DNA from: Hermatobates lingyangjiaoensis
Lineage: Eukaryota > Arthropoda > Insecta > Hemiptera > Hermatobatidae
Reading direction: 5' to 3'
Assembly (NCBI GenBank): GCA_026182355.1
Contig: JAPFBL010000241.1
Span: 483,433 to 547,432, forward strand
DNA length: 64,000 nt
Shown: positions 8,097 through 61,900 of the stretch, in pieces
Position numbering within the stretch: the first letter of the stretch is position 1
How the letters are laid out: each line of letters starts with the position of its first letter
The notes under the pieces: model-generated
Database searches by the model: none
Told to the model about the DNA's origin: nothing
The model's input: the letters and a program-made list of their open reading frames with translations, nothing else
Program-made: the position numbers and the translations under genes

Positions 8097-8655
8097 TATA
8101 TTTTATTATTATTTTTATTTTATTTATTTATATATATATATTTTTTTTTATTTAACATTTATTTATTATTTTTATTTTATCTAATTTATTTTATTTTATT
8201 TATTTTTATTCCTATTTTTTAAATTGCTTTAATTATTTATTTATTTTATTACTTTTATTTTTAATTGTTCTTATCCTTGTATTTTCATTTGTTTCTCATC
8301 GCCTTACCAACTCTGTTATCTTCCTTTTTCATGCTTTTAGGTATTTTTCACGGTATTCCTTTTTATACTTCATTTATCTTCCTGCTGTTTATTTTACCTT
8401 CAATCAACCAGAACTGCTTTTCTTAATTCTTAATTTTAATTTTAATATTAATTTTCTTCTGATCGTCTCTACTTCATTACTTCCTGAACCGGGCGCGCGT
8501 GGCAGCACGGTCGGTTGCCGGGACGGTTTCCTGCCGTTGTGTTTCCGGCGTGCTTGGTCGCCCTTTCTCTCTTTTCTCCTGAAGACGGATCATCCGAAAA
8601 TTTGAGTTTGTAAGTGTGTCTCTTTCTCTGTGTGTTGCTTTTCTTCGTTTGTGAA

Positions 8656-8708
<53 letters not shown>

Positions 8709-11700
8709 ACAAACCACAAGGAAAAAAAAAAAAAAGAAAACAGATGGAAAAAAATGCTCTGAGGCCTTTCAATTTATGTCATCAGAGAGCAAACAAGGTA
8801 AGAACTAGAAAGTAACATAACAGGTATGTACAAGGAAGGTAACTAAACAGCTGGGAAAACAAGAGTCGAAAAGGCATAATAAGAGAAAAACAAAAAATAC
8901 CCAATACAATTAAACAATGCAAAATGAACAATAAGAAAATTAATTAAAATAAAAATATAAAAATATAAATAGAATAAGAAACAAGTGTTATATATAATTC
9001 CTAACTATAAACAATATAAGATAAATATAAACAAATAGATACAAATTAAATTAATGCAATATCAAAAAATAAACAATATTAAATTATTAACAAAACAAGA
9101 ATACAAGAGAAAGTAATAAGTCAAATAAAAATTATGTTCTATTATTAGAATCCACAATCTGGTCAGAGTTCATGTTCAACGTTGCAAGTACATTTTGAAG
9201 GTCACCCACAGGACCAATTTGCCTAACTATACCTTCAATTAAAATTTCATCCAATCTAAAAAGCCCATGACTTATATTTATTAGTTTATCAAAATTATAC
9301 TTAATTAGGGCACTTTCTACTAAGTTCCTTTCCACATCAGATGAGAGAAATATCAATTCTTTGGAATCTTCCCATTTTATTGAATGATTTTTTGAATTAA
9401 TATGTTGGAACAAGGCACTTGATTCTTCTTGCCGCCTAATAGTGTATTTATGTTGCTTCACTCTAGTAAGCAAACTTTTTCCCGTTTGTCCAACATATGA
9501 AAAATCACAATCTCTACAAGGAATCCTATAAACACAACCTTCCTTTTCTTTTCTTTCACAATTATTTACAAGTCTGTTTAATAATTTCCCACCACTACTG
9601 AAAACAACTGAAATATCCATTTTTTTTCAAAAATACCGGGATGTCTCTTAGAGTTTGACTAAAGGGAACAACCAGAAGGTTTCTATTTGTAAAGGGTTCT
9701 TTCTCATTTCTTGTTCTTAAGGATTCTTTAGTTTCTTTCAAAACTTTGTTTATTAGGGATCTTGGGTATCTTAATGATGAGGCAATTTGATAGATGTTTT
9801 CAATTTCATCATTCAGGAATTCTTCACTACACAATTTTAACGCTCTTAAAATTTCTGAAACTTTTCAGAAATATGTTTTTAAGAGCGTTAAAATTGTGTA
9901 GTGAAGAATTCCTGAATGATGAAATTGAAAACATCTATCAAATTGCCTCATCATTAAGATACCCAAGATCCCTAATAAACAAAGTTTTGAAAGAAACTAA
10001 AGAATCCTTAAGAACAAGAAATGAGAAAGAACCCTTTACAAATAGAAACCTTCTGGTTGTTCCCTTTAGTCAAACTCTAAGAGACATCCCGGTATTTTTG
10101 AAAAAAATGGATATTTCAGTTGTTTTCAGTAGTGGTGGGAAATTATTAAACAGACTTGTAAATAATTGTGAAAGAAAAGAAAAGGAAGGTTGTGTTTATA
10201 GGATTCCTTGTAGAGATTGTGATTTTTCATAAATTGATATTTCTCTCATCTGATGTGGAAAGGAACTTAGTAGAAAGTGCCCTAATTAAGTATAATTTTG
10301 ATAAACTAATAAATATAAGTCATGGGCTTTTTAGATTGGATGAAATTTTAATTGAAGGTATAGTTAGGCAAATTGGTCCTGTGGGTGACCTTCAAAATGT
10401 ACTTGCAACGTTGAACATGAACTCTGACCAGATTGTGGATTCTAATAATAGAACATAATTTTTATTTGACTTATTACTTTCTCATGTATTCTTGTTTTGT
10501 TAATAATTTAATATTGTTTATTTTTTGATATTGCATTAATTTAATTTGTATCTATTTGTTTATATTTATCTTATATTGTTTATAGTTAGGAATTATATAT
10601 AACACTTGTTTCTTATTCTATTTATATTTTTATATTTTTATTTTAATTAATTTTCTTATTGTTCATTTTGCATTGTTTAATTGTATTGGGTATTTTTTGT
10701 TTTTCTCTTATTATGCCTTTTCGACTCTTGTTTTCCCAGCTGTTTAGTTACCTTCCTTGTACATACCTGTTATGTTACTTTCTAGTTCTTACCTTGTTTG
10801 CTCTCTGATGACATAAATTGAAAGGCCTCAGAGCATTTTTTTCCATCTGTTTTCTTTTTTTTTTCCTTGTGGTTTGTTTTCATTGATTGCATCACGTGTT
10901 TATTGTGATTTATCTGCATAATATATATATATTGTAAACAGGAAAACGATCCAAAAGGACAACAAAATAAACGTTTCACGATGAATTACAAACACAGAAC
11001 TAAGGAACAAACAGACTTACTGTCTTTAATTTTCGGTTGAACCGTCAACTCAGGAGAGTTGAGATAGGGACGCCAAGCGCACTTGTGAAGCGACGGTTGG
11101 TCTGTGCTAAGGGTAACCATGTGCTCTTGCGTGCCAGAGACAAGTCATTGGCGTGCCAAGTTTGGCACGCGTGCCATAGGTTGCCCACCCCCCTGGTTAG
11201 ACCAATGGCCTATCACAAAGTTTTTTTTTATCCAGGAAACGCAAATAGGAACCTGGTGTCCATCTCTCAGCGAGGACACCATAGATATTGGGCCATGCAG
11301 ACTAACTTGAAAAACTCTCTCTCAAATTAATTCTTTTTTTCAATTTGAAGTTTTCAGGCAGAAACCAAATTCAATATTCATAGGGTTTTTAAAATTAATT
11401 ATTACAATTGTATACTTTTAAAGATATAAAATTTTTACATATAAAATACAAAGTTTGTCTGTCTGTCCGCAACAGAAATAATAATGGAGATATTTAGATA
11501 CAAAGAAACATATAAACCTTATATAACATTTTTCGGGGGGACTAACAACGGATTTTGATTTTGATCAGGGTGCTTTTTGGGATCCACTTTAGAAAATGAT
11601 TCTAAATTCTGGATCCTAGGAGAAAAGTTCTCCCTAATATATTTCTTTTTCTATTGCTGGAAAAAGTTAAAGGATATTTTATAACTAAAACATATTTAAA

Positions 11701-14700
11701 TTTCCTCGAGAAAGATAATGATGTAATTTTGATTTCGATTATAATCTAATTTCCTATACCTTCGTATTAATTTTAAAAAAAAATGTGTTCAAATGTATAA
11801 TAACTTTTATATTATATTTTTTTTGCGTAAGCTATAATTTTTATTCTATATTAATTTTATTTATCTGAAAAAAACTTAAGTGTATCGGAACTATAGAAAA
11901 TTGAAATTGTTTTCGTTATATGTAGTTTATTATTAGAGTTGGAATTAAATTGTTACCCGGGCAACGCCGGGTAGATTAGCTAGTGCACACATAATTTTTT
12001 TTTTTTTTGGCAGGCTATATACAACTAAAAATACAATAACTAACAACTAATACAACTAAATACATAAAAACAGTTAAATTATGTTTTAAAAATACAGTGA
12101 TCCACCCTATAACAAGGTACTCTTAAATGTGTTTTCATATAACGCGATTTCACGTCCTTCGTATAACGCGGGGATTTCTCGTTATACAGTAATCCACTCT
12201 ATAACAAGGTACTCTTACAATGCGTTTTCATATAACGCGATTTCACGTCCTTCGTATAACGCGGGGATTTCTCGTTATACAGTAATCCACTCTATAACAA
12301 GGTACTCTTACAATGCGTTTTCATATAACGCGATTTCACGTCCTTCGTATAACGCGGGGATTTCTCATTATACAGTAATCCACTCTATAACAAGGTACTC
12401 TTACAACGCGTTTTCTTATAACGCGATTTCACGTCCTTCGTATAACGCGGGGATTTCTTATTATACAGTAATCCACTCTATAACAAGGTACTCTTACAAC
12501 GCGTTTTCTTATAACGCGATTTCATGTCCTTCGTATAACGCGGGGATTTCTCGTTATACAGTAATCCACTCTATAACAAGGTACTCTTACAACGCGTTTT
12601 CTTATAACGCGATTTCACGTCCTTCGTATAACGCGGGGATTTCTCGTTATACAGTAATCCACTCTATAACAAGGTACTCTTACAACGCGTTTTCTTATAA
12701 CGCGATTTCACGTCCTTCGTATAACGCGGGGATTTATCGTTATACAGTAATCCACTCTATAACAAGGTACTCTTACAATGCGTTTTCATATAACGCGATT
12801 TTTTGTACTTTGTACAACGCGATTTCATGTACTTTGTACAACGCTTTTTCCTATAACACGGAACTAATCTACCATATTATAGGGAGGATTACTGTAAACT
12901 GTTTTGCCTCAGGAGTTTCTCTTTTCAAGCCCTAACCGATTTCGGAATTTGTCCATCGTTTTTATTCTTTGATTAGAATTATAGGAAAGTCAAAATCGAA
13001 ATTCCTTTGATTCGATTGTTCGTTTCCTATTTAACTAAGCCAAGTCCATACAAACTTACTTTATAAAATTATTAAATTATACCATTAAATAAGTTATTTA
13101 GATTAAGTTAAATGAAACAATTATAGATTAAAGAAAATATTATTGAGTAAAATTCTAAGAGTTTATATCAATATTTAAGTTTATTTATGTTCTGCTGTAC
13201 CTTAAATAAGGAATATTTTTTAGTTTGCTCCTGACAATGGACGAGTTCCAAAACTGGTCAAGGCATGAGGAAAACGTGCAAGGTAAGACAATATATTTTT
13301 CAATATTACTAACAAATTGTGGTACTAACATGATATTTTTTTTCAATTAATATTATCTTATTTTTTTTATAATAAAAATTTGTTATATTTAGTAAAAAAT
13401 ATAAAGATGGAAACATTCTTTCAGTGACACTATTACCTGCCACTCTTCGAAGTCTCTTGAAAAACTTTCCCTAGTGCATAAAGACACCTGCAATTCATAT
13501 CAATTCTTACGAAACATTTACAAATAGCAGCTCTACTTTTTTTTAAAAGTAATAAAAAAAACTGGTGATAAGAGAAATTTTATTTTTAACATAAAATTTT
13601 AATGAAATTTTATCTTATTTTTTATTGGAGTTAAAAGAAAAAGTAGATTGCATTAGAAAAACATATCTTTTTTATAAAAGTATAAAATATACATAAAGTA
13701 AGATGCTAACACTAATTATTATTTAGTTTTATTACGAAATATATATTTGACTTCCTTATCCTTTGAGTAAAAACTAATTACTTTTAAAAAAAGAAAGTTA
13801 TTCTTAAATTTATTGCTATTCTTATAAAATGAAAATACAAACTATTTATTTAAATGTGTAACTTCAAAGTACTTCATATTATTATTTTCATTTTTTGTAT
13901 AGAATTATTATAAACTATTTATAATGTAAATAGTTTAATCTATTATCATCAAAGTTTCATTTTGAAAAGTCTATTTATTTTTCAATTTTATATATATCTA
14001 TAAAAAGATTTCACATAAACACGTGAAATAACAATCAATAATCAACCCATAATATGAAATGGGAAAAGAAGACAAAAGATCTTTCAACCGTAACAAGCGG
14101 TCTTTGTCAGGGTCAAAAACCCAACTGAGTTAAAAGATCTTAGTCTTGTTTTCCCATTTCATATTGTGGTTTGATCATATATATATATATATATATCAAT
14201 AGTCTCTAACTTTCGGTTTGAATAGTCTTCAGGAGAGATAAGAGAGGGAAACCAAGTGCACTGGTTCAGAGACGGTTAAATCAGAGAGGGTTGGTGGAGA
14301 CCTTCTCTGGGGAGACCCATAGAGGGTCTCCAACCAGTGCGCTTGGTTTCCCTCTCTTATCTCTCCTGAAGACGGTTTAAACCAAAAATTAGAGACTGTA
14401 AGTGTGTACTTTTAATTTCTCTATGTTCGTTTTTCTACATTGAACTATATATGTCCGTTTCGGATCGTATTTCCAACAAATATATATATATATATATATA
14501 CTAAATATAAGAAACAGTCCACAAGGACTATAAAACTTTAAATTACACAAATCACGACACAGAAAAGAGAATAAAAAGAACACTTACCGAATTCAATATT
14601 TCAGTAAGAAATATAATATTGAAATATTGAATTCTGTAAGTGTTCTTTGTGTAATTTAAAGTTATATATATATATATATTTGGAAATTAACGTCGCTTTT

Positions 14701-17700
14701 TAATGCCATCTTCTAGAGTTAATAATTTATTTACATTAAATAAATTAAAAAAGTAATAACTAAATTTATCTAAAAGTAGGTTAATAAATCAGGAATAGCT
14801 AGTTAAACAAAATCAAAGAAGAAAACTTGAAAAAGAAAAAAAAGTTCATTTTTTTCTTTTCAAACTTATCTCAAAAGGCCTTATCAATCCTCCATTTATT
14901 TTATTATTGTTTTTAATATTTTTGTTGAAATTATAAGTTTTTTTTTGTAATAGGTTAAAGATATTTTTTCACTATTAAGTTTTGTTTAAATTAAAAATTA
15001 AGTTGCAAAAGAAAAAAATAAAAATAAAATTGAATTACCTTAGTAGAATCTCTTGGCAAAGAACTGTGTTGACTAATATCCGATCTGTTCATGAGTTGAC
15101 CCATTAAGCCTTGCTGTAATAAATTAAATTAATCATGAAAAGACGTTATCCAGTTATCAGTTTGAAGATACAAAGATATCAATAAAAAAAAAAGGAACAA
15201 TTTCACTCATTTATTTGGTTTTAATAAGAATTAAACGAATTTTTAATTAATAGACTATAACAGGGGTGCTCATACTTTTTCAGTACGCGAGCTACTTATT
15301 AAAATGACTAAGTCAAAATGATCTACCGACCCATAAAAAGCTTATATTATTTTAAAATGTATTGAAAATTCTTACTTTGCATTTCTAGATGAGCCAATAT
15401 TGCAGGCATTCTACCACTATTAAATTAAATTAAATAAATCTATTTACGTTTTTTTTCTACTGTTCGTTTTTCTCCGTTGTAAGTAAGTCTAAGGAAGTCT
15501 TAGACTTCCTTAGACTTACTTACTTACTATACTTACTTACTTACTTACTTACTATACTTACTTACTTACTATAATTACTTAGACTTGTCAACTACAGTAT
15601 TTTTACAGAGCATTGTAAAAGAAAGTAGTCGTATTCGATGCTTGGATACGCGAGATTATTTGCTATGCCCATCTCTACCCTGTACATCAGTCAAATGATG
15701 GAATGGATGACAGGCTGACTGTCACTTTTTTGTAGTTACTAAGTGCACAATGAACAGGCAACTTTTTTTTTTCTTCAAAGTTGTATGTGATCTACCACTA
15801 TTGGCCTCGCGATCGACATATTGAACACCTCTGGGCTATAAGAATTAAATTTACTTAAAACATTATATCAGAAAAGATTAATAAAATAATTTATATTATC
15901 AAAAAAATTTAAATTTTAAAAAATTGACATAAATTGCAATACTATTAGTAAAAACACAAATATGTTAATATTAACTGTAGAATTTTTACGAGTAATATTT
16001 TATGTATACATTGAAATGTTTCATTAAATTGCTTGCCTACATACGTATTTTAATCCCTTCATATTTTCTAGTTACTTTCTCTAACCTTCTTATTAACGAT
16101 TTCCACTGGCAGGGAAGAGGATAAATAAGCCCTCCATATGATTTGCTATTTCATCCACTATTTATTTTTTTACTTATAGATACACTATAATTACACTACA
16201 CTATTGGAAAAAAGTAAGAACAGACTTGTTTCGGTTATTCAACAACAATTCTCAATGTAAAATCTATAACCAATAGGCAAGCAATTTAAGGAAACATGTT
16301 TGAAAGAAGACCTGCTCCCCAAATATACATTGAAACGTGGATACATTTCAAATTATTATTTTCATTATTGTAGAAAATTATTATAGGTAAATACCATTTT
16401 TTTTATTGAATATTTATTATATTGTGCATTTATTGTTAAAAAGAAATCACAGAAAAAAAAATTGCTGTAGTTTTCTCAGGTTAAGTATTCTGAATAACTT
16501 TTTTTATTATTATTATGTAAAACTAAAATAGATAATAAATAATTTAGACGATGTAGACAATGTTTTAAGTAAATCAGACTACTTTAAAGAAAACTATCCT
16601 GTAGTGAACTTTGTGAAGGCAAACTTCTTTTTATCAAGGGGCAAAACTGTTGTTCTATTTAATATACAAATACATGTTTTACCATCTTTTGGTAAAACAT
16701 TGATGTATATCGGTAAATATACAAATCTTTTCAATATAGTATTTCTTGTAGCATGTAATTTGATTTTATTAATATTTCAATTTTTAAATTAAAATAAATT
16801 ATCACACAATTTCAGTAGATTTTGACTCCTACACTTAGTATAATAGATATATGAATAAACAAGAAAGAACAGTTTCAATTTTATTAATTTATTTGGTTTT
16901 GAATAGTAAGAATAAAACGATTTTTTTAAATTCTACTAGTTAACAATGTATACAACTTGTTTAGTAATTATTCAAAAATAGTTTTAAACAAAGAAAACAA
17001 CAGCAATGATATTTTAATTAAGTTGGGTAATACTTGCATTGGAAGAGACGTCTTGAAGTTGTTGTGCCAAATTATTTTCCTAAAAAAAAACATTAAACTT
17101 TTTTATGAAAAATAAAAAATTATTTTTTCAATATTATTATATAAAATACAATTGATTATGATATATAATTAATAACAAATTTAAAATAATAATAATAATA
17201 AAATATTATTATTGTAGGGTAAAAATCTAATGAAATGGTCTCTACATATAAAAATTTAATGATGTAAACAACGCGTTTCGAACACCTAGTGTTCTTCCTC
17301 AGGCATTAACTAAAAAATTTAGTGAATGCCTGAGGAAGAACACTACGTGTTCGAAACGCGTTGTTTATATCATTAAATTTTTATATGTGGAGACCATTTC
17401 ATTAGATTTTTACCCTACAATGAGTAAATACCACATAATAACTGATTGCACTACATTAGAAAATATTATTAATTCGTATTAATAAAATAATGGTACATTT
17501 ATATAATTTTTATTAAATAATACAAATTTAAGTTTACCTTGATTTCACCCAAGGTACATGTCAATTCATTGATTGCATCATCTAATTCTGATAGCTTAGC
17601 AGATACAATCTTTCTTGATTCCAGAAACAAATGATCATCACAGACATTTTCTTGTTCCTTAAAAATTTGAAAATGATATTTTATATCTTCATTATTTTTT

Positions 17701-20524
17701 TTTTCGGATAAACAATTGTAAAAAATTACTCTAATTATTGAGTTGACATAAAAAGATTTCACTTATAAAATAAGACAATAATACAACTTCATTGTGTTTA
17801 TCTTCTAAATAGCGAAATGTTAAAGTGTTAAGTTAAGTTAAGTTAAAGTTAAGTTAAAGTTAAGTTAAAGTTAAGTTAAAGTTAAGTTTAAGTTAAAGTT
17901 AAGTTAAAGTTAAGTTAAAGTTAAGTTAAAGTCAAGTTAAAGTTAAGTTAAAGTTAAGTTAAAGTTAAGTTAAGTTAAAGTTAAGTTAAAATTTTAAAGT
18001 CGAATAATATCAATGAACTGTGACTTTCATATAGAAGGGTGCACAGTTTTGAGAATCTCACAATTTATTACTTGATTCATAATGTGCTTGATCACTGATT
18101 GTTATTTCAGGTATTTATTATGAAATCTTGTTATTTATAACATAACATAAAAAGATTTCACATAAACACAACACGTGAAATAACAATCAATGATCAAACC
18201 AATGATAGTCACCCATTTTATAGTCACCGTTTTCCCATTTCTTATTGTGGTTTGATCATTGATAACATAACATATAAAAAAAACATATAATATTTGTTTA
18301 AAAACAAGATAATTGTTATATAAATTTTAATAAAATACATACATGACTTCTTAATTCGGAAACAGTTTTGTTAAGCGCTGCCATCATTTCCTTTATAACC
18401 TTGCAGTCGATGGCTTGGAAAACGCTTGGATCCTGTTCACCAATATTTACTATTATTACATTAATCAAATTTACACAATACATACAATAAATCAGTATTT
18501 TTTTTTTTTTCAAACACAAACCTTATAACCTTGATATATTTCCCTTGTAGGATCTACTTGGTGTAACATTTTACAAAGATTTTGTCCTAAAGTGTTAAAA
18601 TTTGCTCTAATTGAATGTATCTGCAAAAAAAAAAAACAAACAAAAATTGACTTATAATTTGTTTTGTCATATTTTCTTATCATTTTTATTGTAAAATAAT
18701 TTAAATTTTTACCTTGTTCTCTCGATCTTTGATTTGAACCACTGCTAAATCTAGTTCTTTTTTCAATTCATCGCATACATCCTGAACTATGGAGCATTTG
18801 TCTTCTAAAACGCTTATTTCACCAAAACCCGTATCATAGTTATTCTGTGGCTAAAAAAATAGAAAAAAAAGACTTATTAAAACAATTTTATTTTTTAATC
18901 ATTTATTTTATCATCTGTTAATGATTATAGAGGAAATACATGTGTATCTTAGTATAGAATCAACGTCCAAACTATAGTTTTACAAGATAATGGCAAAAGT
19001 TTGAGTTGGTATTATAAGAAGTAAGTTCATGGGATTTGTAAATTTTAGGATTTTTTAAATAGGTAATAGATTAGTAAAAAGCTGGAATGTAATAATTTAG
19101 AATGAGCAGTAAACAAAAGTTACTTAAATTAGACTATAAAAAAACTCATAAAATATATCCGCGACAGTGGCGAAGAAACTATTTTTGCGAAGAACTGAGG
19201 AAAAAAGAAAACTAAGATCTTTCAATCGTAACAAGCGGTCTTCGTCAGAGTCAAAAACCCAACTAAAACACTAGATGCAGAAAACATCTGGTGAGGGGTT
19301 GAGAAGAGTGGGTTTTGACTCGGACCGTTTGTTATAGTTGAAAGATCTTAATCTTTCCTCCTTTCTTATTGTGGTTTGGAGGTTGATTGTTATTTCATAT
19401 GTTTATTTGTGAAATCGTTGTTATCTTAGTATAGGTGATTTGCCTTCTAGTTTTATCTAAGATCTTACTATTTGAGGAGTGCTGTGATACGGTCTGGCCA
19501 TTGGGCTATTCTTGGTGGTTCCCATTTTAACACCTTTCTTAGCCATCTGTAATATTCACCATATTATATTTATAAAAAAAACTCCAGTTTTGTTAATAAA
19601 AAATATTTTTTGCATTAAACAGTTAAATACAAAAAAAAAATAGTAGAATTAGTATGTTTGTATTTAACTAATCCTTTTAAATAAACAATTGTATCCATGA
19701 TTGAAGCCTTGAAAATACCTATTACAGATAGCTACCTTCTGTAGCTCTTTATAGTGGTAAACCTTCATTATAAAACCATGATACACAATTATATATCTAA
19801 CATAATGTAACGTTGTCAGAAGAGAAACTATTTTGATTAATAAAATACAAACATTAGACGGCATAACGATGCCTTTGGTATTAATTATAAATCAATGAAA
19901 AACGTTCAAATGTAAACTAAAAAATGACACCATCATCACATGATTAACGAGTATGTATACAAAATAAAAGTTTATCAGGACTCGGTCAGTTCTTCAGGTT
20001 TAAATTAAACTCTCATTTTCAACGTTTCTGTTTTTATTTAAAACCTTTTTCATAGGCAGAATTATACATTTTGAAACAGAAAAACTAAGTATTACATTAG
20101 AGATTACACTGTGTCTTGTGTTCATTCAAACTAGACAGTTGTTGGAAGTCCGCAAAGTGTTGTTTTTTTCTAAAATAATCTCTAATATACTAACACTTAG
20201 TTTTTCTGTTTCAAAATTTATCTGCCTTCTGAAAATGTTTTAAATAAAAACCGAAGCGTTGGCAATGAGAGTTTACTTTGACCTGAGGGACTGACCGAGT
20301 CCTGATAAATATGATTATGTTTCTACTTCACGGTCTATACTTTACTTTTATCAATATATTATATTCTCAAATAATTGTTCTTGGCCTCTTCTATTCTATT
20401 GTATTAGGTAGGTTTTATTTTGATGTACCCTGAAGATGATGTACAAATACATCGAAACGTTGGCCTAGGAAGGAGTTTATTTTCTTTTATATGACCTAGC
20501 CCTCAAAAACAAAACCTTCCTAAT

Positions 20525-20567
<43 letters not shown>

Positions 20568-23500
20568 TTAAGACATAGGAAAGAACATAGAAAGTCACTA
20601 CAGAACTCCCTTCGATAAGTCGACATGCGTCGTCATCATATATTATATATATTATATATATATATATATATATTTCGTTGAACGCTGACCGTATTTCGCT
20701 GATGATCATTTTCTTTCATAACATATATATATATTAATATATAAGTATAGTTAGATAAACATAAAATCAAAGCTACTCAAAGGGACTACTTCTGCCCGAT
20801 GACGACGAATGTCGAAATATCGTTGTGAGTATGTTTGTGTGTGTTTTTATCTATTTTTCTCTTTCCTATATGAACTATATATATGTATATTTATATATAT
20901 ACCTGCCATGATATACAGTAAATAGATAAACACAAAATAGAAAACACAAAACTGTCTCCAACATCATTTCGCGTCGCTATCTCTTCTCTCCTGATGATCG
21001 TTAAACCGAAAATTGGAGACTGTAAGCAAGTGTTTTCTATTTACTGTTTACTTGTAATTTACCCTGAAACGTTTATTTTCCTTTTTTGGATCGTTTTCTT
21101 ATATATTTTCTTATATATATATATATATATATATATACATACAAAATGTAAAAATAAATGATACTTCAGACAATAGGGAAGTACACTTTTATACTTTTCT
21201 GAATTAAAAACATAAAAAAAATAAAGCATCATTTTACCAAGTATAATTTACAACTAAAAATTTACACGATTATAATATAAAAAGTAATATTTTTAATGGT
21301 GTTGAAGTAATTATTATAAATAATTATAAAGTAATTTTAAATTGATTACCTCATCAACGTATTCCTCAAGGTTGTTTTTTAGGTTCATTACATCTGAGAA
21401 GGCTGACTTCAATTCATTTACTTTGCTCTTCATACATTCAACGTTTCTCTAAAAAAAAAAAATAAATAGAACAGTATGTTAATTAAATAAGAAAAATCAT
21501 TGGAAATGAATTTCATAAACTAATAAAATTGTACGAGTATAAAGAATTTTTAAAACCCTTCAGTTATTCTTTGGTTTCTTCTTTAAATTTACCAACCAAT
21601 ACCAATTTACCTACCAATTAAGTTTCTAATTCTGTTTTAATCTTAATTGGCCAACCTTAATGATAAATGACAAATGTATCTTTTATCTACTCATATTGTT
21701 ATTGTTAACAATAGTATAGGACAGGGGTGGTCAAACTTACGTAGTAAGTTTACGTAGGTTACGTAGGAGGACCACTTTCTTACTTAAGTCATTATGAATA
21801 GATTCATGCATTTCGTCATTACCACAGAGGTTCGTATTATTATTATTATTATTATTAAAACTATAACATACCGTCTTACCTCGTACACTGCTGGTGAAGC
21901 TCTCAGACCGGTTTCGGGTGTCACCCATCTTCAACAAGAAATGATCTCATTTCTCATAGTCTTGTTTTCCCATTTCTTTTTGTGGTATGGTCATTGATTG
22001 ATATTTCACGTGTTTATATGAAATCTTTTATATATATACACTTTAACACAGAGAAAAGAACACAGAAAGACACTACAGAACTCACTTCGATATTTCGACA
22101 TCCGTCGTCATCGGGAAGAAGTGCGAAGTACTCGCGTTGAGAAGCAAACTGCTACTGTGTTCTTTTCTCTGTGTTAAAGTGTTTGTTGTCCACACGGACC
22201 TTTCATTTTATTCGAAGTATATATATATATATATATAATTTGTTTGTTATTTTAACGTCACAAACGTTAGAGCTCCATAACGTCTATAACTGCAATTGGA
22301 CGTCTAAAGATCATACAGTACTATTAGTTAGCTTCAAATATTTAGTCGATTAACAAGGTTGAACTGTATTAATATTCACATTTACTCATTCTGGAATATC
22401 ACTTACTTAAAGAGTAAAAAGAAATGTAATTAGAACATAATAATATAAATAAAAATACCTCGTTTGTCATTTTTCCAAGATCTGCCAACTCCCCAATTTT
22501 GGCTTTTAGTAATTCAATTCTAAAAACTTGCTTGCGTAACTGAAATGAATAAATTGTATTGTAAAATTACTTTTGTAGATCTGCCTCTAGATTTTTTTTT
22601 TTTTTTGAACAAAAAAAACGTGAATAACTTACTTGTTCTCCCTTTTTATTTATTTTACACTTTGTAATTTTCAAGTCTTGTTTTATTGAATCTATTGCAG
22701 TTTGATATGATCTAACGGTACTGCCTATCTCACATTGCAATTTTAAAAGCTGCTCCATTTCTTTTTTCTGTTTAAAATAAAAAGAACGAATGAATGTTTA
22801 ATTAGGAAAACATAAAAAGATTCAATACACTGTAGATAATTCAAAATGTTTACCTGATTTTCCAAGTTTACATATAGAGTGTTCTGGTGTTTTTGACTCT
22901 CTGAACGTATAGTAGAAAGAGCTGTTTGTACAGTTTTAATGTTAGTTGTATATTTAGAGGATGCTGCTGGATCACAACTTTCTGCATCCTAAAATACAAA
23001 GTTAATAATTAATGAGGCAATTAAAAAAATCTTTAGTGACTTAAAATCAACTTTGCTACAAATTAAACATAATAGCAAACCTATGGGACACAATTAAGAT
23101 TTGGTTTTGTTTAAATAAAATATTTTGCTTGTACACATACTGTATGCATACAAGATCATACGTGATGATCTTGTATGCATACAGTATCTGCACATACAAT
23201 GACTGATGTGGTGACTGGTGGTTTACCTGAGGTGACAGTTGCTTTAAGTCATTCACAAGATTGAAGATTTCACACATTAAAGAGTCCGCTAATTCCTTCT
23301 TTGGACAAGAATGCTGGAAATTTCAAAAAAAAAAAAAACATAAGCATTATTTTAAAAATTACATAAAAGATTATTACTTCCTATTGCTAGATTACAATGA
23401 TTTTTTGTTTATAGTTTATCGACTTCAAAAATTCAAGCAGCCCTAAAATATGTCGATATTTAATCCTTTCAATAACAGATTATATTTTTTACTATAAACT

Positions 23501-23830: not shown

Positions 23831-23872
<42 letters not shown>

Positions 23873-39978: not shown

Positions 39979-41212
39979 CTATATTGACACAAAGAACACT
40001 CAGCAATGAAACACAAACTCACTACTATATTTCGATGTCCTCGTCATCAGGAAGATAGAAGCGAGTAGCGCTGCAGGCAGACAATGACTATATATATATA
40101 TATATAACAGATTCAATAATATATCGACCATTTGATAGAATAGGTGTGTTATCTAATCGGGATTCAGTCAAATTTCTAGGTTCATCGTGGGTATCTAACC
40201 CCAGAGGCGAGTACGTTAACCACTGAGCTAGCCTAAGCCTTCATGAAGAATTTAAGAACTATCAATACTTCTTAAGCATTTTGGATGACAGATGATAAGC
40301 CTAGAGCCTTAAATAATTGACAAGTGATAGCTTAATATGAACTTTAATGGTGCCATAAACCTTTTTGATAGGGAGAAGTAACAATTTTTTAAGTAAGAAA
40401 ATGAAATTTACATTATTTAAAGGAAGAACAATCTTAACCGGACAAAACCTTTAACTAGACTGTCCTAGAGTATAGTCGAAGGTTTTGTCCGGTTAAGATT
40501 GTTGTTCCTTTAAATAATATAAATTACATTTTCTTAGTTAAAAAATTCTTACTTCTACCTATGAAAAAGGTTTTAAAATAAAACCGAAACGTCGGTAATG
40601 AGAGTTTGATTTTTGAACCTAGAAAATTTGACCGAATCCCGATTAGATAACACACACACACACTCACACTAAATTTTAAACCGTTTATGCACTTTATTAA
40701 GAAAATAGACTTAGACGTATTTTAAACCATTATAAGTGTTATTATATTTATGATATGTTTTGTTATTATGCTGTGGTATATTACGCTATGATAGGTTATG
40801 CTATATTAATTATTAGATTTAAGTCAATGTGTAAATATTTAAGTTAATAATTAAGTTAAGTAATTGAATAATCTAAAAAATTGTTATAGTTAATATAGTA
40901 GAATATTATAACATGTTATACTCAGCGTGACACATGTTTGTAAACTATTCAATAAACTCCCAACCAGCAGGGGTACTGCTGGGTGGAAAAGGAAAAAAAA
41001 AACACACATATATATATATATATATATATAAAGATTTCACAAAAACACGTGAAACAACAATCAATGATTAAACCACAATAAGAAAATGGGAAAACAAGAC
41101 TAACAACTTCGTTAGTTGGGTTTTTGACTCTGACGAAGACCGCTTGTTACGGTTGAAAGATATTAATCTTGTTTTCCCATTTTCTTATTGTGGTTTGATC
41201 ATTGATATATAT

Positions 41213-43329: not shown

Positions 43330-43365
<36 letters not shown>

Positions 43366-44871: not shown

Positions 44872-44904
<33 letters not shown>

Positions 44905-46056
44905 ATATATATAATATGATCAAACCACAATAAGAAAATGGGAAAACAAGACTAAGATCTTTCAACCGTAACAAGCGGTCTTCGTCAGAGTCAAAAACCA
45001 AACTGTTGGGTTTTTGACTCTGACGAAGACCGCTTGTTACGGTTGAAAGATCTTAGTCTTGTTCCCTATTTCATATTGTGGCTTGATCTTTCATTGTTAT
45101 TTCACGTGTTTATGTGAAATCTTTATATATATATATATATATATATACTTCACACAGGAAAGAGAAAAACAGATAAAAACACACAAAAAAAAGACTCACA
45201 ACGATATTTCGACATTCGTCGTCATCGGGCAGAAGTAGTCCCTTTGAGTAGCTGAAGCTAACTCAGCTATATATATAATCAAGTAAACATGAACTGACGC
45301 AACAAAAAATCCGATAAGTAGACAAAATAATATATACATATACCAACAAAATTCAGTGCAATAATTCGAATAAAGAGAGTTCTTTCTTAAAATAATTATT
45401 TTCAAAAAGAATAAGGACTATCCATTTTGAAATTTATGCTAATATTTTTTACATTTACCTCTATTGAAAAAAAAAACCACGAAAATATATTATTGAGGCT
45501 AGTGAAATAATGAAGTAAGTACAAAAGACGATGTATAAATGATTTGAAATGACGATGTGTGGGAGAGGGTAGAAAGGAACTAGTCAAGGATACCTTTGCT
45601 CTGGCGATCTTGACCTCCTTCCGGAGCTCCTTAATGAGTTCATCCTTAAACTGTGTCTGCATATCTAGCTGGCGAACCTGGTCCTCCAGTTGGGACATTT
45701 CTCGTCTTAGAGCGACAACATTGTCGTGCTTCTCTGCTACTTCCGCTGTTAAGGCTTCCTGCATTTCCCTGGTGGACTAGCACAACAACTACATTAACTT
45801 TATTATATATGTATATATATAATATATACAACAAGATTACACAATAAACACGTGAAATAACAATAAATGATCAAACTAACGATATGAAATGGAAAAAAAA
45901 AGACTAAGATCTTTCAAGCGTAACAAGTGGTCTTCGTCAGAGTCAAAAGTCAACTGACTCTGACGAACCCAACCCAACTCTGACGAAGACTACTTGTTAC
46001 GATTGAAAAGCTTAGTCCTTTTTTTTCCCCATTTCATTTTGTGGTATTGTTGATTG

Positions 46057-46090
<34 letters not shown>

Positions 46091-52000: not shown

Positions 52001-55000
52001 CAATGAGTCGTGCACTTTGCTACTAAAACTCCTCATAATGACTCCCTGATAGTGTCCTATGAACTACTAGTAGCAAGTATAGCAAGTAGCAAGTAGCAAG
52101 TACCCCTGGTCCCGGGATAACGGGCATTGCCCTCTTCGGAGGGGGACGACCGAGTTCTTAAGAACTCGTTTAAGGTAATCCTTAAACTACAAGGCTGGTA
52201 GGAAGCTGTCCATTCCTTATATACATTTTTAATTAACATATCTGACGAAAAAAATTGAGAAACATGTATATAAATAGATTGAAAGCATTTGTTATTCGAC
52301 AAAAGTTTGGTTAAAAATATATATTCAGACATGTAAAAAATATTTTTTTTTTAAATTTATAACCTTCCCATGAATACTTCCAAAAAACCTTCCTATAATT
52401 CTTATGAAATAGACATTTCGTTTTGCGTGAGTAATTCACTTATTATGCCAGTTTTTCTTTATTTTCATCATTTTTGGCACCAGCTAGAATGCTGATAAGT
52501 CTTAGGAGGATGTGACTTGTAGGTTACTATTGTCTGAGTATTTGTTCTGGCCGCATAGCTTTGTGATTTCGTAGTGCAACTGCATATCTTGCTGCTGCTG
52601 AGCAATATGTTATGGAGTCATATTTAATCTCCATTAAAAAAAAAGAAGAGCTTTTTGTTAAAAACAAACAACGCTTTTCGAACATTCCTTCCTAGGCCTC
52701 TGTTGCTATAACACCTTCAACAGTGAAAGATATAAACCTGAAGAAGAGCACTTAAGTGTTCTAAACGCATTGTTCGTTTTTAACATAAAAACTCTTTTGT
52801 GTAGAGATGTAATTTTTTTTTTTAAATTCTCCTTTACGAATAATTCAACTTTTCGCTAAATAGGTTATTGTTCTGACCTGCTGGAGCAGGTCAGGTAAAG
52901 CCATCTGTTCAAACAGGCATTCCTGGTATACATACCAAGTGTATTGTTTCAAACCCTACCAGTCGATTCATTATCAGAACTTAATATAATATGCTATTGA
53001 ACCTGGCAGTCAGAGTTCCCAGACCGAGCTCGTATTGCGATTCATTCATATTACAAAGCAATTTTTCACATTGAAGTTAATATGAAAATAAATAATCCTT
53101 TCTATCCCCAAACGCCTATATTTAAAGTTTGGTTTTAAAACAGAAATGGTGCAATTAGAAAAAAATAAACAACACTATAAGTGTAATATGAATAATAAAA
53201 ATACATGTAAGAAATAATCATATTTATTATTCATGTAATATGAATAATAAAAATACATGTAATAAATAATCATATTTTATTATTGATGCAATATGAATAA
53301 TAAAAATGCATATAAGAATCTATTTTATTATTCATGTAATATGAATAATAAAAATACATGTCATAAATAATCATATTTTATTATTCATGATCAAACCACA
53401 ATAGGAAATGGGAAAACAAGACTAAGATCTTTCAACCGTAACAAGCGGTCTTCGTCAGAGTCAAAAACCCTTTTTGACTCTGACGAAGACCGCTTGTTGC
53501 GGTTGAAAGATCTTAGTCTTGTTTTCCCATTTTCTTATTGTGGTTTGATCATTGATTGCTATTTCACGTGTTTATGTGAAATCTTTTTATTTATTATTCA
53601 TGTAATATGAATAATAAAAATACATGTAAGAAATAATATTTTATTAATCTACTATACTTAAAACGGAGACCATCCAGGCGTGGGGAAGACCTACTACAAA
53701 TTTTTCTTCGTCGTACTCGTATAAGACGAAAACTCACGAAATGCTGCCTGCAAAGCGATTTGCTCGTACAATGATGCACTCGTACTACGAGTTTCAACTA
53801 AACTTTGAGAAAATAATCACATAATAATGTAAGCATAGTCTAGATTAATGAAATATATAATTAAATTAATAATAATATAAAACATGCATAATATTGTGTC
53901 ATAAAGAACTCACGGTGTCACTGAAGCAATCATCATGGCGGTTGTTTTCCATTGAACCTTTCAAGTCAGAAATCTAAAACATTCGTAAGTTACTAACAAC
54001 AATCAAAACAATAGCTAATCCCAAGGCTGGAATAGTAAATTGTAAATTGTAAGTTAGTTAGTAAATTGTACTGTGCCTGTTAGTAAATAGTTAGTAAATT
54101 GTAAGTTACTAACAACAATCAAAACAATAGCTAGTATCCCAAGACTTTGTTGTTATCCGTAATCAAAATCAAAATTAGTTTAATGTTTAACAGTTTTCGT
54201 TATTGTCATTTCTGGATACAACTAACAAAATATAATAAAGTACAGTTTCAAATTGATTATTTTACTTATATTTGGTAATATAAACAAGGTGTTTAGACTA
54301 GACAGTCTAGTCGAAGGTTTTGTCCGGTTAAGATTGTTATTCCTTTAAATAATGTAAAATTCATTTTCTTAGTTTAAAAAAAATTCTTACTTCTGCCTAT
54401 GAAAAAGGTTTTAAAATAAAACCGAAACGTCGGCAATGAGAGTTTGATTTTTGAACCTAGAAAATTTGACCAAATCCCGATTAGATAACACACCTATTCT
54501 ATCAAACGGTCGATATATTATTGAATCTGTTGTATATATATATATTATGCCATGTTAAACATGAATCGGCTTCAACATGGCAGACTAATCACATAATTTC
54601 CTCCCAATTTTCTCACCTTGTCTTTCCCTGATAACAAACTATTATTCAAACTATCGAATTCTTAATTGATTTCGTTTTGTTTTGTCTTCTGTATTTAGTA
54701 ATAAATTAAAAAAAAACAAGTATATGTTATTGGCAATATTTGTATTTTATGATTTTTGTTCCTTATTTATAATAATGTTTGTATGTTATTATTCAATAAT
54801 TATTTACATAATTATATAATATTATTTAATAACAACACGTTTAAAAAGCATCTAGTTCTTTTCAAATGTATTTATAATTTAATTTAAATTTATTGGAAGC
54901 CTTTTAGTTTTACGTGTTAGTTTCAAAGATTTTGTTTGTTCTATACCTTTTCCAGTTGGCCCATTTTTAAATCAGTTTCATTACTTCTTCCTCGGTTTTC

Positions 55001-58000
55001 TCTGGAAATCATCCTTTGTTTGTAACAGTTGAACTCGTACTCCATCTTACTCATGCTGGAAAAACCAATGACTTAAAAAAAGATTAGTTATTTAATCAGT
55101 TTTATTTAGTTAAGGATTTAATTTATTATAATAAATATAGTATATACAAAATTGTCACAATAACACGTGATATAAATATTCAGGTAACTCACCACAAATT
55201 AATGAAGATAGTCGCTCTGAGGCCTTCCGTTTTCACGTCGTCAGAGAGCCCGATATAAATATTCAGGTAACTCATCACAAATTAATGAAGATAGTCGCTC
55301 TCAGGCCTTTCGTTTTCACGTCGTCAGAGAGCCCGATATAAATATTCAGGTAACTCATCACAAATTAATGAAGATAGTCGCTTCGAGGCCTTTCGTTTTC
55401 ACCTCGTCAGAGAGCCCGATATAAATATTCAGGTAACTCATCACAAATTAATGAAGATAGTCGCTCTGAGGCCTTTCGTTTTCACGTCGTCAGAGAGCCC
55501 GATATAAATATTCAGGTAACTCATCACAAATTAATGAAGATAGTCGCTCTGAGGCCTTTCGTTTTCACGTCGTCAGAGAGCCCGATATAAATATTCAGGT
55601 AACTCATCACAAATTAATGAAGATAGTCGCTCTCAGGCCTTTCGTTTTCACGTCGTCAGAGAGCCCGATATAAATATTCAGGTAACTCATCACAAATTAA
55701 TGAAGATAGTCGCTCTCAGGCCTTTCGTTTTCACGTCGTCAGAGAGCCCGATATAAATATTCAGGTAACTCATCACAAATTAATGAAGATAGTCGCTCTG
55801 AGGCCTTTCGTTTTCACGTCGTCAGAGAGCCCCATTATAAATATTCAGGTAACTCATCACAAATTAATGAAGATAGTCGCTCTAAGGCCTTTCATTTTTC
55901 ACGCCGTTAGAGAGCAACGTCACGTCGTCGCTCTCTGACGACGTGAAAACGAAAGGCCTCAGAACGACTATCTTCATTCATTTGTGGTGAGTTACCTGAA
56001 TATATAGTATATATGAAAAAATTAATATCAACAATAACTCTTGATACAAAATATGAATTAAATAATCACAATGAAAAGAATATATTGGATACTACGTTTC
56101 ATTATAACCGTGCCTTCTTCATACATGTAAGTAATAAAAATCATATAATAAATTGCGACAAAGGTAAGGAATTAATATTTGTGCCATCAGAAAGAAAAAC
56201 GAATATTATTGAAAGTGCACTCATAAAGAACTTTTAAAAATTATTGAACAGTCCTGAACTTTAAAAATAGGATGAAATATTGATAAAAGGAATAATTAAG
56301 CAGATACAAGACTCCTTCAATTTTAGAAACATTAAATTCAGTCAGGGATGTCAGAAATTCTGACGACTTCTATCAACCAGGTTAACTTGTAATTATTTTT
56401 TGATATTATTATCAACCGTCAGACCTCGTCTATCGCTGGTGAAGTCGCCCGACCGATGCAGCGATTGGGAAACCGGTCGGGCGACTTCACCAGCGATAGA
56501 CGAGGTATGACGGTTGATAATAATATCTTATTTACTAACATCTGTGGCACTAACAATATGCAATTATTTTTTGGTTTAGTTTATGAATATGAATCAGTCT
56601 GAGTTCATAAACTCAGACCGACATTACGTGCGTCTTCGTAACTCCTAGAGAGTTGACGTGTGTCCGTTCAATTATAGAATAGATCAAATGAAAGTATATT
56701 TAGTATACATTTTCTTGTATACTAAACGCCAAGCGCTATGTAGCTCTTTGATGATGTTATAACGAAAAGCCTTAGAGTATTGTATTTAATATATGTTTTT
56801 TTATTGTCGTTATTTAATTCATATAGTATATTATATCAAAGTCCAAACCACAATAAGAAATAAGAGAAAAAAGTTGTTTAGTCTTTCTTAGTCTTTTTTT
56901 TATTTATTTTAGTGCTTTGAACATTGATTGTTATTTCATGTGTTAATTATGAAATCTTGTTATAGTATATTACTAGCCACACCCGTGTATTTTCAAAATA
57001 AACTTGTCTGCAAAGTGAGCAAAATACAGCTTAAAGCCCCTAATTTCGCTTCTGCACTGAATTATCAATCTATTTAGAGCCTATATTTTAAGTTAGTTAT
57101 GTACAAATCTAGTGTCAAAGTTTCAGATCTCTATGTCTCATGGTGGATGAGATTACTTGTGACAAACGTGATTGTTTTAAACGTCCATAACTTCACTTCT
57201 ACGTTGAATTTTCAATCAATTCAGAGCCTATATTTTAAGTTAGACATACAGAAATTTACTGTAAAAGTTTTAGCTTGATATGTCTTATGGTGGCTGAGTT
57301 TACTTGTGACAAAGTTTTGCGGACAAACCGACAAACCGGCAGAAATTTTTCTAAGGGTGGATTCGGTTTCTCTAATGTATGAAATGTAAAAAAAAACTTT
57401 AAATGAGTCAGTTCTAAGCAATGTACAGACAAAATCATTATTTTATTTATATAGATATCAATGATCAAACCACAATATGAAATGGGAAAACAAGACTAAG
57501 AATTAATTACATTACGTTGTTACTCTTTCTTACTGTACTCCTTTGTTTCCCCAAACATCCCTTTCTGGACATTTGTCCTTTCCTGCACTTTTACCCTTTT
57601 AAAATACGTCTTCTCTCCCACTCTTCTCAACCCCTCACCAGATGTGTTCTGCATCTAGTGTTTCAGTTGGGTTTTTGACTCTAACAAAGACCGCTTGTTA
57701 CGGTTGAAAGATCTTAGTCTTGTTTTCTCATTTCATATTTGTGGTTTGAGCATTGATTGTTATTTCACATATTTATGTGAAATATTTTTATATGCTATAT
57801 ATACTATAATATAATATATTTTACTATATTGTATTGTAATTACTGAAGGAAATAATATTACATTATAAAGAATAGCCTCTACTTACCAGTCCCTCATGCC
57901 AACTATTTCCTGATTCGCCTGAAAGTATGTTATTTATTATTTAATATTCAGTATTTAATTATTAGCAAGATAAAAACTCTACCAACAATAATACTGTTAT

Positions 58001-58899
58001 CTTACCTTGTCACGATTGATTTCCAAACGTTCTTTCAGTTCCTCAATTTCAAACCTCATTTTTTGTAATAAGCAGTCTTTTTCCTTTAGCAGATCTGTTA
58101 ATACTTTCTTTTCGCTTTCCATATTCTTAATTCTGAAACACAATGACCTTAAAGTCTAATAAAAAAAAAAGAAAGAAATATACGTTACAGGCTAAAAATT
58201 TATAAATAACATTTTATATTCATTATATTTAATTTATTTTATTTATTATGTAAGAAGATAGAAATTACCACATTATTATTTCTCATTACTTATATCTATA
58301 AATATAAAAATCATAGTTAGCATACCCTGCACGCTTTTTTTCTCTTTTCGGAAAATCAGTCAATTTATATCAGTATTTTATTGTTTTACTTATTAATTTT
58401 AAGATTTTAAAAACCTAGGTTACATTAGGTAGTACTGGACTGAGCATACTGAACGGTACTTTAGTATTGCACAAGTACGTAACTCATAGCTACCCTTCAG
58501 CAATATTCAACTGGATATACAACAGCAATCCTGCAATTGCAGTCAGTACGACTGGATACTAGAGCAAAGCTAGTATAACGACAACGCTCTCGCTGATGGA
58601 CTGGCAGATTCATGGTTCAATACCCATTCTGACTCTCGATTTGTTCACGTTTAGCCGTCGGTCCGAAACCGGGACTGACCGAGTCTTGATAAACTTTAGT
58701 TTTGTTTCTATTCTACGGTCGATACTATTATCATTATATTTATATATATACTTTAAATTACACAAAGCACGACACAGAAAAAGGAATAAAAAGCGCACTT
58801 ACAGAATTCTCAATATTTCGAACTGTTGTTCGTCATCAGGAGTAGACTAGAAGAGAGGACGAAGTGAGAGAGATCTCCCCATGTCCAAGGACGGAGCGC

Positions 58900-58939
<40 letters not shown>

Positions 58940-61900
58940 AGGATCAAACCACAATAAGAAATGGGAAAACAAGACTAAGATCTTTCAACCGTAACAAGCG
59001 GTCTTCGTCAGAGTCAAAAACCAGTTGGGTTTTTGACTCTGACGAAGACCGCTTGTTACGGTTGAAAGATCTTAGTCTTGTTTTCCCATTTCTTATTGTG
59101 GTTTGATCCTTGATTGTTGTTTCACGTGTTTATGTGAAATCTTTTTATATATAATATATATATATATATATTGTTTTCTATGAGTTGTCCGGGGAAAGGA
59201 ATATGATTCGTTACAATGTTGACCAATAGGAGTGAAGTTTACAGGTCCATGCTTAAGGTGAGGCTAATGTTTTCTGCCAAACATCATTTAACACAGAGGG
59301 ACTGTGCAACCTCTATACCTATTGGCAGAATGACTGAGGCTTCTCTGAGCAGCGGGTAACTGGGACCGCACGCATGGACCTGTAAACTTCACTCCTATTG
59401 GTCAACATTGTAACGAATCATATATATATATACATATATATATATTTGCGTTTGTGTTAATTTAATATCAAAGAAAATTATTTGATAGGAAAAAAGTATT
59501 AAAAGAGTAGAGTTAATAGAGTCAATATACTCTTTTCTATTGAACTAAATAGTTGTTTAATTTATGACTTAAGTAATTTTTTGAATACAAAAATATTTAA
59601 AATATGATAGGAACTCTTTTAATTCAGTTATTTCTTAACACTATATCTGTCACTTGAACTTGATGATATTAACCTAATACCTTTTTATTTATGATAAACT
59701 CGTTGGACTTAATTTTTGTTTGTTTTTTGTATTTTTAATGATTGATAGAATAAAATAATATATTTGTAGGGTAAAAAGCTAATGAAATGGTCTGCACATA
59801 TTTACTGGTACAAACAACGTGTTTCGAACAGGTAGTGTTCTTCTTCAGGCGTTAACTACAATGCCTGATTGCATTAAGTTATAAATAATATATTTATTGT
59901 GAATGGTGGTTACGTGAAGTTGTACCGTGAGGCCCCACTAAGGAGGAAGCAATTTATCTTTTAGTCTGGAGACAATAAGAGTTAAAGAGTTCATCCCTGC
60001 TCGCTTTCTATCAGCGTTCTGTCTTGTCTTGAATATATTTATAGATATTTATAGTGACAAAGCATAATGAGAATCTAAACGAGCTTGAATAATTCAGTTT
60101 GAACAACTCTATGAATAATAGCTAAGTAGTGATGTCATTATTTTACTTTCAAATAGCAGATAACATACGAGTTTTGTCACACAGAAGGCAGGCTTGAGCC
60201 AAATCGACATTCAGTAGTTTTGTAGGTGTCAATTGGATGTTTCGTGAGTGATATATCTGACCAGATATTTGTAGAAATATAGTTGATTTTCAAGCTGCGC
60301 AGTCACTTATCAAAGATTGAGCGATTATTGCAAAAAAAAAATGTATTTTTTTAATATGATTAGTAAGATCATGCGCATTAGACCCCTTTCTAATGTTACC
60401 GGAATGCTAGTAATTCAACTATACAAATGTAACATGTTTGTTTTCCATATAAGAAAATCGGACGACCACAAAATTCACTCTTCGCTCATTTCATCTCTCT
60501 CATACCGTCTTTTTTTGAAAATAAGACACTATCTTAATTTCTTTTTAGGATCAAAATACATGCTAGGGCTTATATTCAAAGGTGGGCTTCAAGTAAAATA
60601 AGTCGATTTATATTTTTTCGTTTAATATTCATATATAAAAAGATTTCACATAAACACGTGAAATAACAATCAATGATCAAACCACAATAAGAAATGGGGA
60701 AAACAAGACTAAGATCTTTCAACCGTAACAAGCGGTCTTCGTCAGAGTTGGGTTTTTGACTCTGACGAAGACCGCTTATTACGGTTGAAAGATCTTAGTC
60801 TTGTTTTCCCATTTCTTATTGTGGTTTGATCATTCAATATTCATATATATATATACATATATATACAGAAATTTAAATTTATTCAATTACAATCATGTCA
60901 ACTTCTGGAATATCGTTATAAATGATCAAATTTTTAATTTTTTCTGATTTTTCTCCAAATCCATTTCGTGTAGAATTATTGGTTCAAATCTCTCATGTCT
61001 TACAATATAGCTGTCATTTTTAACGAATTATATTTTTCACATTATATTAACTAGAGTTTATTTTCGGGGGAGGGTAAATATTCTAAAAAATCACGAAAAT
61101 CACCAGAGGGTTTATTTTCGAGGGATGTCTTGTTTTCGGAAAAAGACAACACACTCCTGTATATCAACCTTATGATGTTAAAAAGCAAGGCTTTTATTAT
61201 TTTTACAATTTAATAACAATTTATAATCTCATTTTTATGATGTTTACCCCCTAATATAATATATATGTATATATATTATATATAATGAGATTATATATTA
61301 TATTACCCCCAAATATATAATCTCAAGGGGGATGTTTACCCCCTTTATAAACTTGGGGGTAAATGGATAAATCAAAGACTCCATATATAAAAAAAAAAAA
61401 ACAGTTTTTTCTTGTTCTACGCATTTCGAACATTTCGTATTCATCGTCAGGTAAACTTCCAAATGAAGGAGTCGAAGTTGAACACTCGACTCTGATCGGT
61501 CCTTTACTCCTTCATTTGGAAGTTTACCTGATGATGAACACGAAGTATTCGAATCGCTGTAAAATTAAAAAAAAGCTTCTTTTTTATGTGTGTAGATTTA
61601 CTCAATGTGAGTAAACACTTACCACACAATTACGGATTACACAACTAATGAATTTCTAATCTGTAAGAATGTTCAATCAAAGTTTTTTCGTTCTTTTATT
61701 TACTATTAGCAAATGCATCGCCTACTTGGGCGTTAGCAGCCTGATTTTGTTTGATTTTCTAATTCTTCATATCTTTTTGTATAAGTTTCCTTTAGGAATA
61801 ATATAACTTCAATGGAGTATTGATAGAAATATAATACAGTATAGAGCTGAGCTTCACAAAAAGGGTTCCGCAGAACCCAGGGGTTCCTTAACAAACTGTC

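Follow-up and report, generated by a model that had tools for sequence, protein, structure and literature searches.

Minimal type I hammerhead ribozymes in Penelope-like elements (PLEs) were reportedly described by Cervera and de la Pena in 2014 and by Lunse, Weinberg and Breaker in 2017, and cleavage of PLE hammerheads as dimers has reportedly been published. Reviews describe these ribozymes as having a minimal core and a very short or absent helix III, as lying in the pseudo-long terminal repeat (pseudo-LTR) of the element, as present in thousands of copies in many metazoan genomes and as proposed to act as dimers; the minimal motifs are said there to be without a loop–loop tertiary contact between stems I and II. 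The same reviews report dimer-dependent cutting for newt and viroid motifs and suggest it for PLE motifs; what the minimal hammerheads do in PLEs is a mystery according to a 2020 review (PMC7761336). A 64,000-nt stretch of the Hermatobates lingyangjiaoensis genome (contig JAPFBL010000241.1, positions 483,433 to 547,432; hereafter the window) carries repeated motifs that resemble these ribozymes in core, helix III, pseudo-LTR location, copy number and proposed action. Judged from their sequences, they are real, minimal type I hammerhead motifs borne by PLEs, with cleavage predicted. It is likely that they lie in the 3′ pseudo-LTR of several PLE families and that their arrangement is accounted for by PLE insertion. 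The association of hammerheads with PLEs is already known; what stands out here is the density of copies and the mirror-image insertions made by rule. A constant extra base before stem II, the copy density and the one-tail rule of head-to-head insertion are useful additions beyond the known kind.

To locate the motifs, both strands of the window were scanned with a relaxed pattern (CTGANGA, 4–25 nt, GAAA, a self-complementary A..T 4-, 6- or 8-mer, one base, and a stem I of at least 3 bp). The scan returned 29 structured copies, against a simulated expectation of 0.025 on average and 2 at most in 200 first-order Markov windows. An earlier note on this DNA had claimed at least 15 complete copies, a number exceeded here, and its four examples (10800-10834, 33668-33710, 44159-44191 and 59035-59077) all hold. 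The CUGANGA ... GAAA core is present in all 29 rows by construction, being the search criterion, and position 17, after which cleavage is predicted, is A, C or U in 25 of them. The rows are not independent: they come from repeat families, and seven belong to an 83-bp tandem array (six) and its mirror copy (one). A stricter scan without the unpaired base after A9 recovered the AGAUCU family only (11 rows). The window is AT-rich (GC ~0.30) and full of repeats, and its palindromes yield spurious matches to microRNA models, but the probability that the motifs are a chance or low-complexity artefact of such DNA is practically nil: this explanation is already refuted by the excess over simulation, by the covariation described below and by the genome-wide count for one family, F3, whose pattern has 1,610 matches while the reversed pattern has none. 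The copies in the window are listed below, with the letters of stem I and helix III in brackets.

7872-7902, plus strand: hammerhead motif, F2 variant (CUC/GAG, AAUU), relaxed scan
8576-8606, plus strand: hammerhead motif, F2 variant (CUC/GAG, AAUU), relaxed scan
8704-10884, no strand assigned: head-to-head palindromic PLE insertion, F3b; two 5′-truncated copies joined at ~9864, with a hammerhead at each outer 3′ end
8755-8791, minus strand: hammerhead motif F3b (GCUCU/AGAGC, AGGCCU), short 3′ end entering (TA)n
10799-10835, plus strand: hammerhead motif F3b, long 3′ end and CACGTG-hairpin tail
17258-17374, no strand assigned: two F4 motifs in inverted orientation (ACGCGU; weak stem I), within a palindrome whose arms are 17211-17314 and 17318-17421
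19210-19252, minus strand: hammerhead motif F1 (GACU/AGUU, AGAUCU), relaxed scan
20987-21019, plus strand: hammerhead motif F2, position 17 is G (cleavage unlikely), relaxed scan
33598-33640, minus strand: hammerhead motif F1, left half of palindrome 33561-33747
33668-33710, plus strand: hammerhead motif F1, right half of the same palindrome, tailed
36497-36529, plus strand: hammerhead motif F2 (UCUC/GAGA, AAUU), relaxed scan
38860-39010, no strand assigned: inverted pair of F4 motifs within palindrome 38841-39029
40012-40060, minus strand: motif F5b (CUUC, AUAU), weak stem I, relaxed scan and structure-blind cores
44092-44124, minus strand: hammerhead motif F2, left half of palindrome 44040-44243
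44159-44191, plus strand: hammerhead motif F2, right half of the same palindrome
44950-44992, minus strand: hammerhead motif F1, left half of an inverted pair
45016-45058, plus strand: hammerhead motif F1, right half of that pair, tailed
45902-45944, minus strand: hammerhead motif F1, tailed
53420-53462, minus strand: hammerhead motif F1, left half of an inverted pair
53476-53518, plus strand: hammerhead motif F1, right half of that pair, tailed
55169-55915, minus strand: 83-bp tandem array, 9.0 copies, F3 hammerhead and short 3′ end; last unit with full tail
55932-55963, plus strand: hammerhead motif F3, mirror copy adjoining the 83-bp array
58809-58842, minus strand: motif F5 (CUC/GAG, AUAU), relaxed scan
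58936-59114, no strand assigned: perfect palindrome with 87-bp arms and a 5-nt loop; two F1 motifs, 58973-59015 (minus) and 59035-59077 (plus)
60708-60748, minus strand: hammerhead motif F1, tailed half of an inverted pair
60758-60800, plus strand: hammerhead motif F1, other half of the pair with 60708-60748

A structure-blind set of cores (CTGANGA, 5–26 nt, GAAA) was drawn from 264 kb, namely the window and a 200-kb sample of the same genome (20 pieces of 10 kb, L009–L028, at round-number positions on contigs C1–C13 that were fixed before viewing). The set comprises 98 cores, of which 67 fall into nine clusters and 31 are singletons; eight of the nine clusters have copies in the window. In every cluster GAA is followed by a Watson–Crick palindrome, helix III, which is 4–6 nt long and has no loop to close it within one molecule. 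Stem II (1–6 bp) is likewise best formed in all nine with exactly one base unpaired after A9, a possible difference from the published PLE hammerheads. Stem I covaries between families: across eight non-redundant clusters it totals 23 bp within families, whereas exchanged partners give 11.5 on average, and 84 of the 40,320 re-pairings reach 23 (p = 0.002). These pairs were counted on cluster consensuses without a covariance model, the aligner having put motifs with 4- and 6-nt helix III out of register. The minimal type I layout and the covariation across families, as put forward in the earlier note, are in agreement with these results. Three weaker variants that it had included fared unevenly. 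ACGCGU copies keep the core, with a contiguous stem I of only 2 bp; the CUGANGA core is absent from the AGCGCU copies (0/6 in the window) and from the ACCGGU copies of the window (0/2), and one ACCGGU copy outside it (L019:3179) keeps the core. The AGCGCU copies form inverted pairs (302/383, 32010/32104 and 49130/49198) with stem II, GAA, AGCGCU and a flanking CCAAC, all six without the core, and may be related to the hammerhead motif as a decayed or core-less form.

Reading frames with matches to reverse transcriptase (RT) or GIY-YIG domains adjoin motifs of three families (F3, F5 and F8) in this genome. A 479-aa frame adjoining F3 (L037) matches RVT_1 at 35.9 bits (cutoff 29.6) and GIY-YIG at 21.9 bits, just below the cutoff of 22.6; a 617-aa frame ~300 nt before an F5 motif (L027) matches RVT_1 only, at 37.4 bits, with no GIY-YIG; and the frame before an F8 motif (L020) gives GIY-YIG at 21.8, also just below cutoff. 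GIY-YIG is above cutoff at two other F3 loci (L001 and L036, 23.8 and 24.8). The single PLE frame match of this kind in the window, GIY-YIG at 9135-9626 on the minus strand (21.2 bits, below cutoff), lies in the F3b insertion 8704-10884, whose outer arms (8726-9358 and 10232-10864, 633 nt) are 100% complementary. The Penelope-like link drawn in the earlier note is upheld by these frames, with RVT_1 above and GIY-YIG near the cutoff. No Pfam match was obtained for L023, where an F2 motif lies inside an open stretch resembling PLE reverse transcriptase in alignment. In the protein alignment the other four proteins are 23–58% identical to L037, on which basis the ribozyme families appear to sit in distinct PLE lineages.

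More than half of the window copies stand in head-to-head pairs, a point absent from the earlier note: 16 of the 29 rows make up eight same-family minus-then-plus pairs, one of these rows lying in the 83-bp array and one being its mirror copy. The same orientation prevails for F3, for which 100 of the 1,610 places were listed. Among these, 26 consecutive pairs are less than 2 kb apart, of which 25 are minus-then-plus, none is plus-then-minus and one is same-strand (81 bp). Twenty of the 25 minus-then-plus pairs were retrieved for analysis of arms and tails. Their 3′ ends are fixed, the inverted arms ending at position 954 or 955 of the retrieved piece in 15/20 loci, and the inner junction varies. 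One side continues through a CACGTG-loop-GTG hairpin (the tail), and the other is ~23 nt shorter, often ending at (TA)n. Exactly one tail is present in 18/19 F3 loci as read from printed flanks (none in L044; L042 left out), in 13/13 distinct F1 pairs and in the one F3b insertion, that is, on exactly one side in 32 of 33 insertions. The F1 tally derives from 14 scripted rows: 11 are one-tailed, two scored as tail-less show by eye a variant tail in the left flank, and one scored as two-tailed re-uses its neighbour's right end and was dropped. The tail pattern had no match in F2, F4, F5, F5b, F8, F9 or F10 copies, and the one-tail rule therefore rests on three families.

The CACGTG-centred hairpin, e.g. 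TTTCACGTGTTTATGTGAAATC, is the tail common to these three PLE families (33747-33778, 45092-45124, 59114-59144 and from 10884 onward), and is a possible RT start or protein-binding signal. In the Anolis PAc element RT starts instead in an AC-rich stem loop (PMC11167929). Anolis PAc/Poseidon is otherwise alike in having its hammerhead ribozyme at the junction of pseudo-LTR and open reading frame and a tail defined by two RT start sites, and in using, in vitro, an AT-rich target of which both strands are cut and extended (PMC11167929). Likewise, a report on Adineta vaga (PMC3846280) describes an endonuclease-containing Penelope with head-to-head inverted repeats and an optional 31-bp tail on one inverted pseudo-LTR. 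That report gives target duplications of 8–10 bp for the A. vaga PLEs and proposes self-priming on an antisense template. It differs in reporting a very low copy number, and the word hammerhead does not occur in its text; the genome described here, in contrast, contains numerous short, truncated palindromes whose targets are often (TA)-rich.

The lengths of the two arms are coupled. They agree within 21 nt in 9/17 loci (permutation p = 0.0003), and the mean |ln ratio| is 0.399 (p = 0.002); the arms were read by hand in all of the 20 loci except L032, L036 and L038. Independent twin priming as the sole source of both arms is disfavoured by this coupling and by the one-tail rule, while simple cDNA snap-back alone leaves the stop of the second arm before the tail unexplained. 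Evidence of target-site duplications in the flanks is weak: repeats of 9 bp or more, other than (TA)n, occur in 4/14 real flank pairs and 25/182 mismatched pairs, and flanking duplications in 1/19 F3 loci, with (TA)n targets blurring the signal.

Several observations weigh against the reading of these motifs as PLE-borne hammerheads. The extra unpaired base before stem II is unusual, as is a stem I of just 1–2 bp in 3/9 clusters; stem II of F3b, 1 bp only, counts in the same direction, and G occupies position 17 in 4/29 rows. A palindromic helix III is also found in 11 of the 31 singleton cores, several being divergent family members, and this full control is weaker than the 2/17 obtained with 17 singletons chosen from the 31 by eye as unrelated. 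Rfam hammerhead models, whose failure to match had been named in the earlier note as one of two parts of a refutation, gave no match to the window at the gathering threshold, none to the whole window at E ≤ 10 and none with 166- and 57-nt pieces. For the six motifs folded, stems I and II in isolation have low stability (−1.4 to −7.5 kcal/mol). In all six the predicted minimum fold is unlike the ribozyme fold, with F3 and F3b losing the register of stem I, and in four (F2, F3, F8 and F9) the extra base before stem II is paired to G12. F1, the commonest family, is linked to no reading frame among the loci analysed, and the same is true of F4 and F9. Of five plus-then-minus neighbours within 2.2 kb in the window, two are of the same family (45016/45902 and 59035/60708, both F1); these are read as separate adjacent insertions. 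Finally, the palindromic copy 58936-59114 is predicted to fold to a perfect 87-bp hairpin burying the motif (−157.9 kcal/mol), and because the transcript of this one copy would fold in this way, the palindromic copies probably arose as by-products of PLE insertion and lack activity. The remaining Rfam matches at E ≤ 10, to microRNA and other models, look like palindromes or chance.

The weak monomer folds and the missing Rfam matches would also be expected if the motif were a structural fossil, conserved as a protein-binding or RT-start structure of the PLE RNA that overlaps coding sequence, with cleavage absent or irrelevant. Results on Anolis PAc point the same way, since mutants of its hammerhead have no effect on insertion in vitro, unprocessed RNA is the dominant template and zero reads start or end at the cut site (PMC11167929). 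However, the combination of a catalytic core, a covarying stem I and a palindromic helix III in nine clusters is more in keeping with a hammerhead than with a generic hairpin, and the PAc ribozyme does cleave when protein is present (PMC11167929). We consider a structural fossil rather unlikely and favour hammerheads of the 3′ pseudo-LTR, whose action in PLE insertion would be as follows.

The hammerhead would lie in the 3′ pseudo-LTR, right after the RT/GIY-YIG frame where a frame is found. Because helix III is loop-less and self-complementary, one RNA would be unable to close it, and cutting should therefore need two copies. Two copies, either in tandem in one transcript or on two RNAs, would pair via helix III, and each could then be cut after position 17; cutting of tandem PLE transcripts would then free unit-length RNAs. 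We infer further that the PLE enzyme nicks (TA)-rich DNA, that reverse transcription begins at one of two fixed sites past the ribozyme and stops early, and that a second, inverted arm completes the insertion to give a head-to-head palindrome, of which the paired copies in the window would be end products. A bolder version, to which we assign a low probability, is that helix III is kept to pair two PLE template RNAs on a dimeric enzyme that primes both target strands, one arm from the tail site and the other from the proximal site. If true, the ribozyme would be a dimer-coupling device for insertion, which would explain head-to-head palindromes with exactly one tail. Our literature search, which did not cover the key papers on PLE hammerheads, found no work tying hammerhead dimers to palindromic PLE insertions. 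In this genome, insertions whose 3′ ends, junctions and tails can be read form a dense natural set. Models of PLE insertion are constrained by the one-tail rule and by the coupled arm lengths, and the varied helix III palindromes permit a direct test of the relevance of dimer formation.

Palindromic copies make poor candidates for an active ribozyme; the 83-bp array at 55169-55915, the sole hammerhead array found in the window, is the exception. Its direct units carry the motif, some with G at position 17. The short 3′ end of the PLE closes its units, with a full tail on the last, which suggests template jumps on a short (truncated) PLE RNA. Elsewhere in the genome, a same-strand F3 pair lies 81 bp apart (C4:1096147/1096228). 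Both this pair and the nine tandem copies recall metazoan retrozymes, which according to PMC7229834 carry type I hammerhead ribozymes in short tandem repeats, and the hammerhead units, the array among them, could be regarded as non-autonomous elements of a retrozyme or satellite type spreading as small circular RNAs. This is very improbable. The unit of 83 bp compares with 150–450 bp reported in PMC7229834, and unlike retrozymes, which lack PLE parts, the motifs here belong to PLE copies and palindromes; the array itself terminates in a PLE tail and its units at the short 3′ end of the PLE, a pattern that repeated template jumps would be expected to produce, and the commonest arrangement is the inverted pair and not the array.

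To place the window in its genome, it was compared with the 200-kb sample. Family matching gave 43 matches in the 64-kb window and 33 in the sample, with 8/10 and 9/10 family types, respectively, from a list of ten drawn from both. The window holds 29 structured motifs, or 23 with the array and its mirror copy taken as one; for the same length of sample, the bootstrap gives 5.1 on average and 15.2 at most. Its density is ~4–6 times that of the sample, an excess that should not be read as a test, as the window was chosen because of its motifs. The 16 structured motifs of the sample extrapolate to ~73,000 in 910 Mb (bootstrap 36,000–109,000), a figure based on 20 pieces from large contigs, with direct backing from the F3 count alone. 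The number of families coexisting in 64 kb, which the earlier note had singled out as striking, loses its force in view of the types present outside the window and of the coral genome, for which PMC7229834 gives 16 families with >6,000 type I motifs (and, for axolotl, 126,247 motifs). Many hammerhead families in one genome are thus already known and are not special to this locus.

Among the surroundings of the motifs, two open coiled-coil-like stretches lie on the minus strand (34394-34723 and 45405-45776), with no Pfam family above cutoff; they may be host-gene exons, which would place the insertions in host-gene introns. An RNase H-like fragment at 28159-28443 on the minus strand (18.1 bits, below the cutoff of 25.8) is perhaps a remnant of a long interspersed nuclear element (LINE). 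Other high-identity tandem arrays occur at 12092-12801 (93 bp), 29920-30167 (49 bp) and 35147-35402 (32 bp), and further arrays with 68-bp and 142-bp units at 62757-63169 and 63430-63841, respectively.

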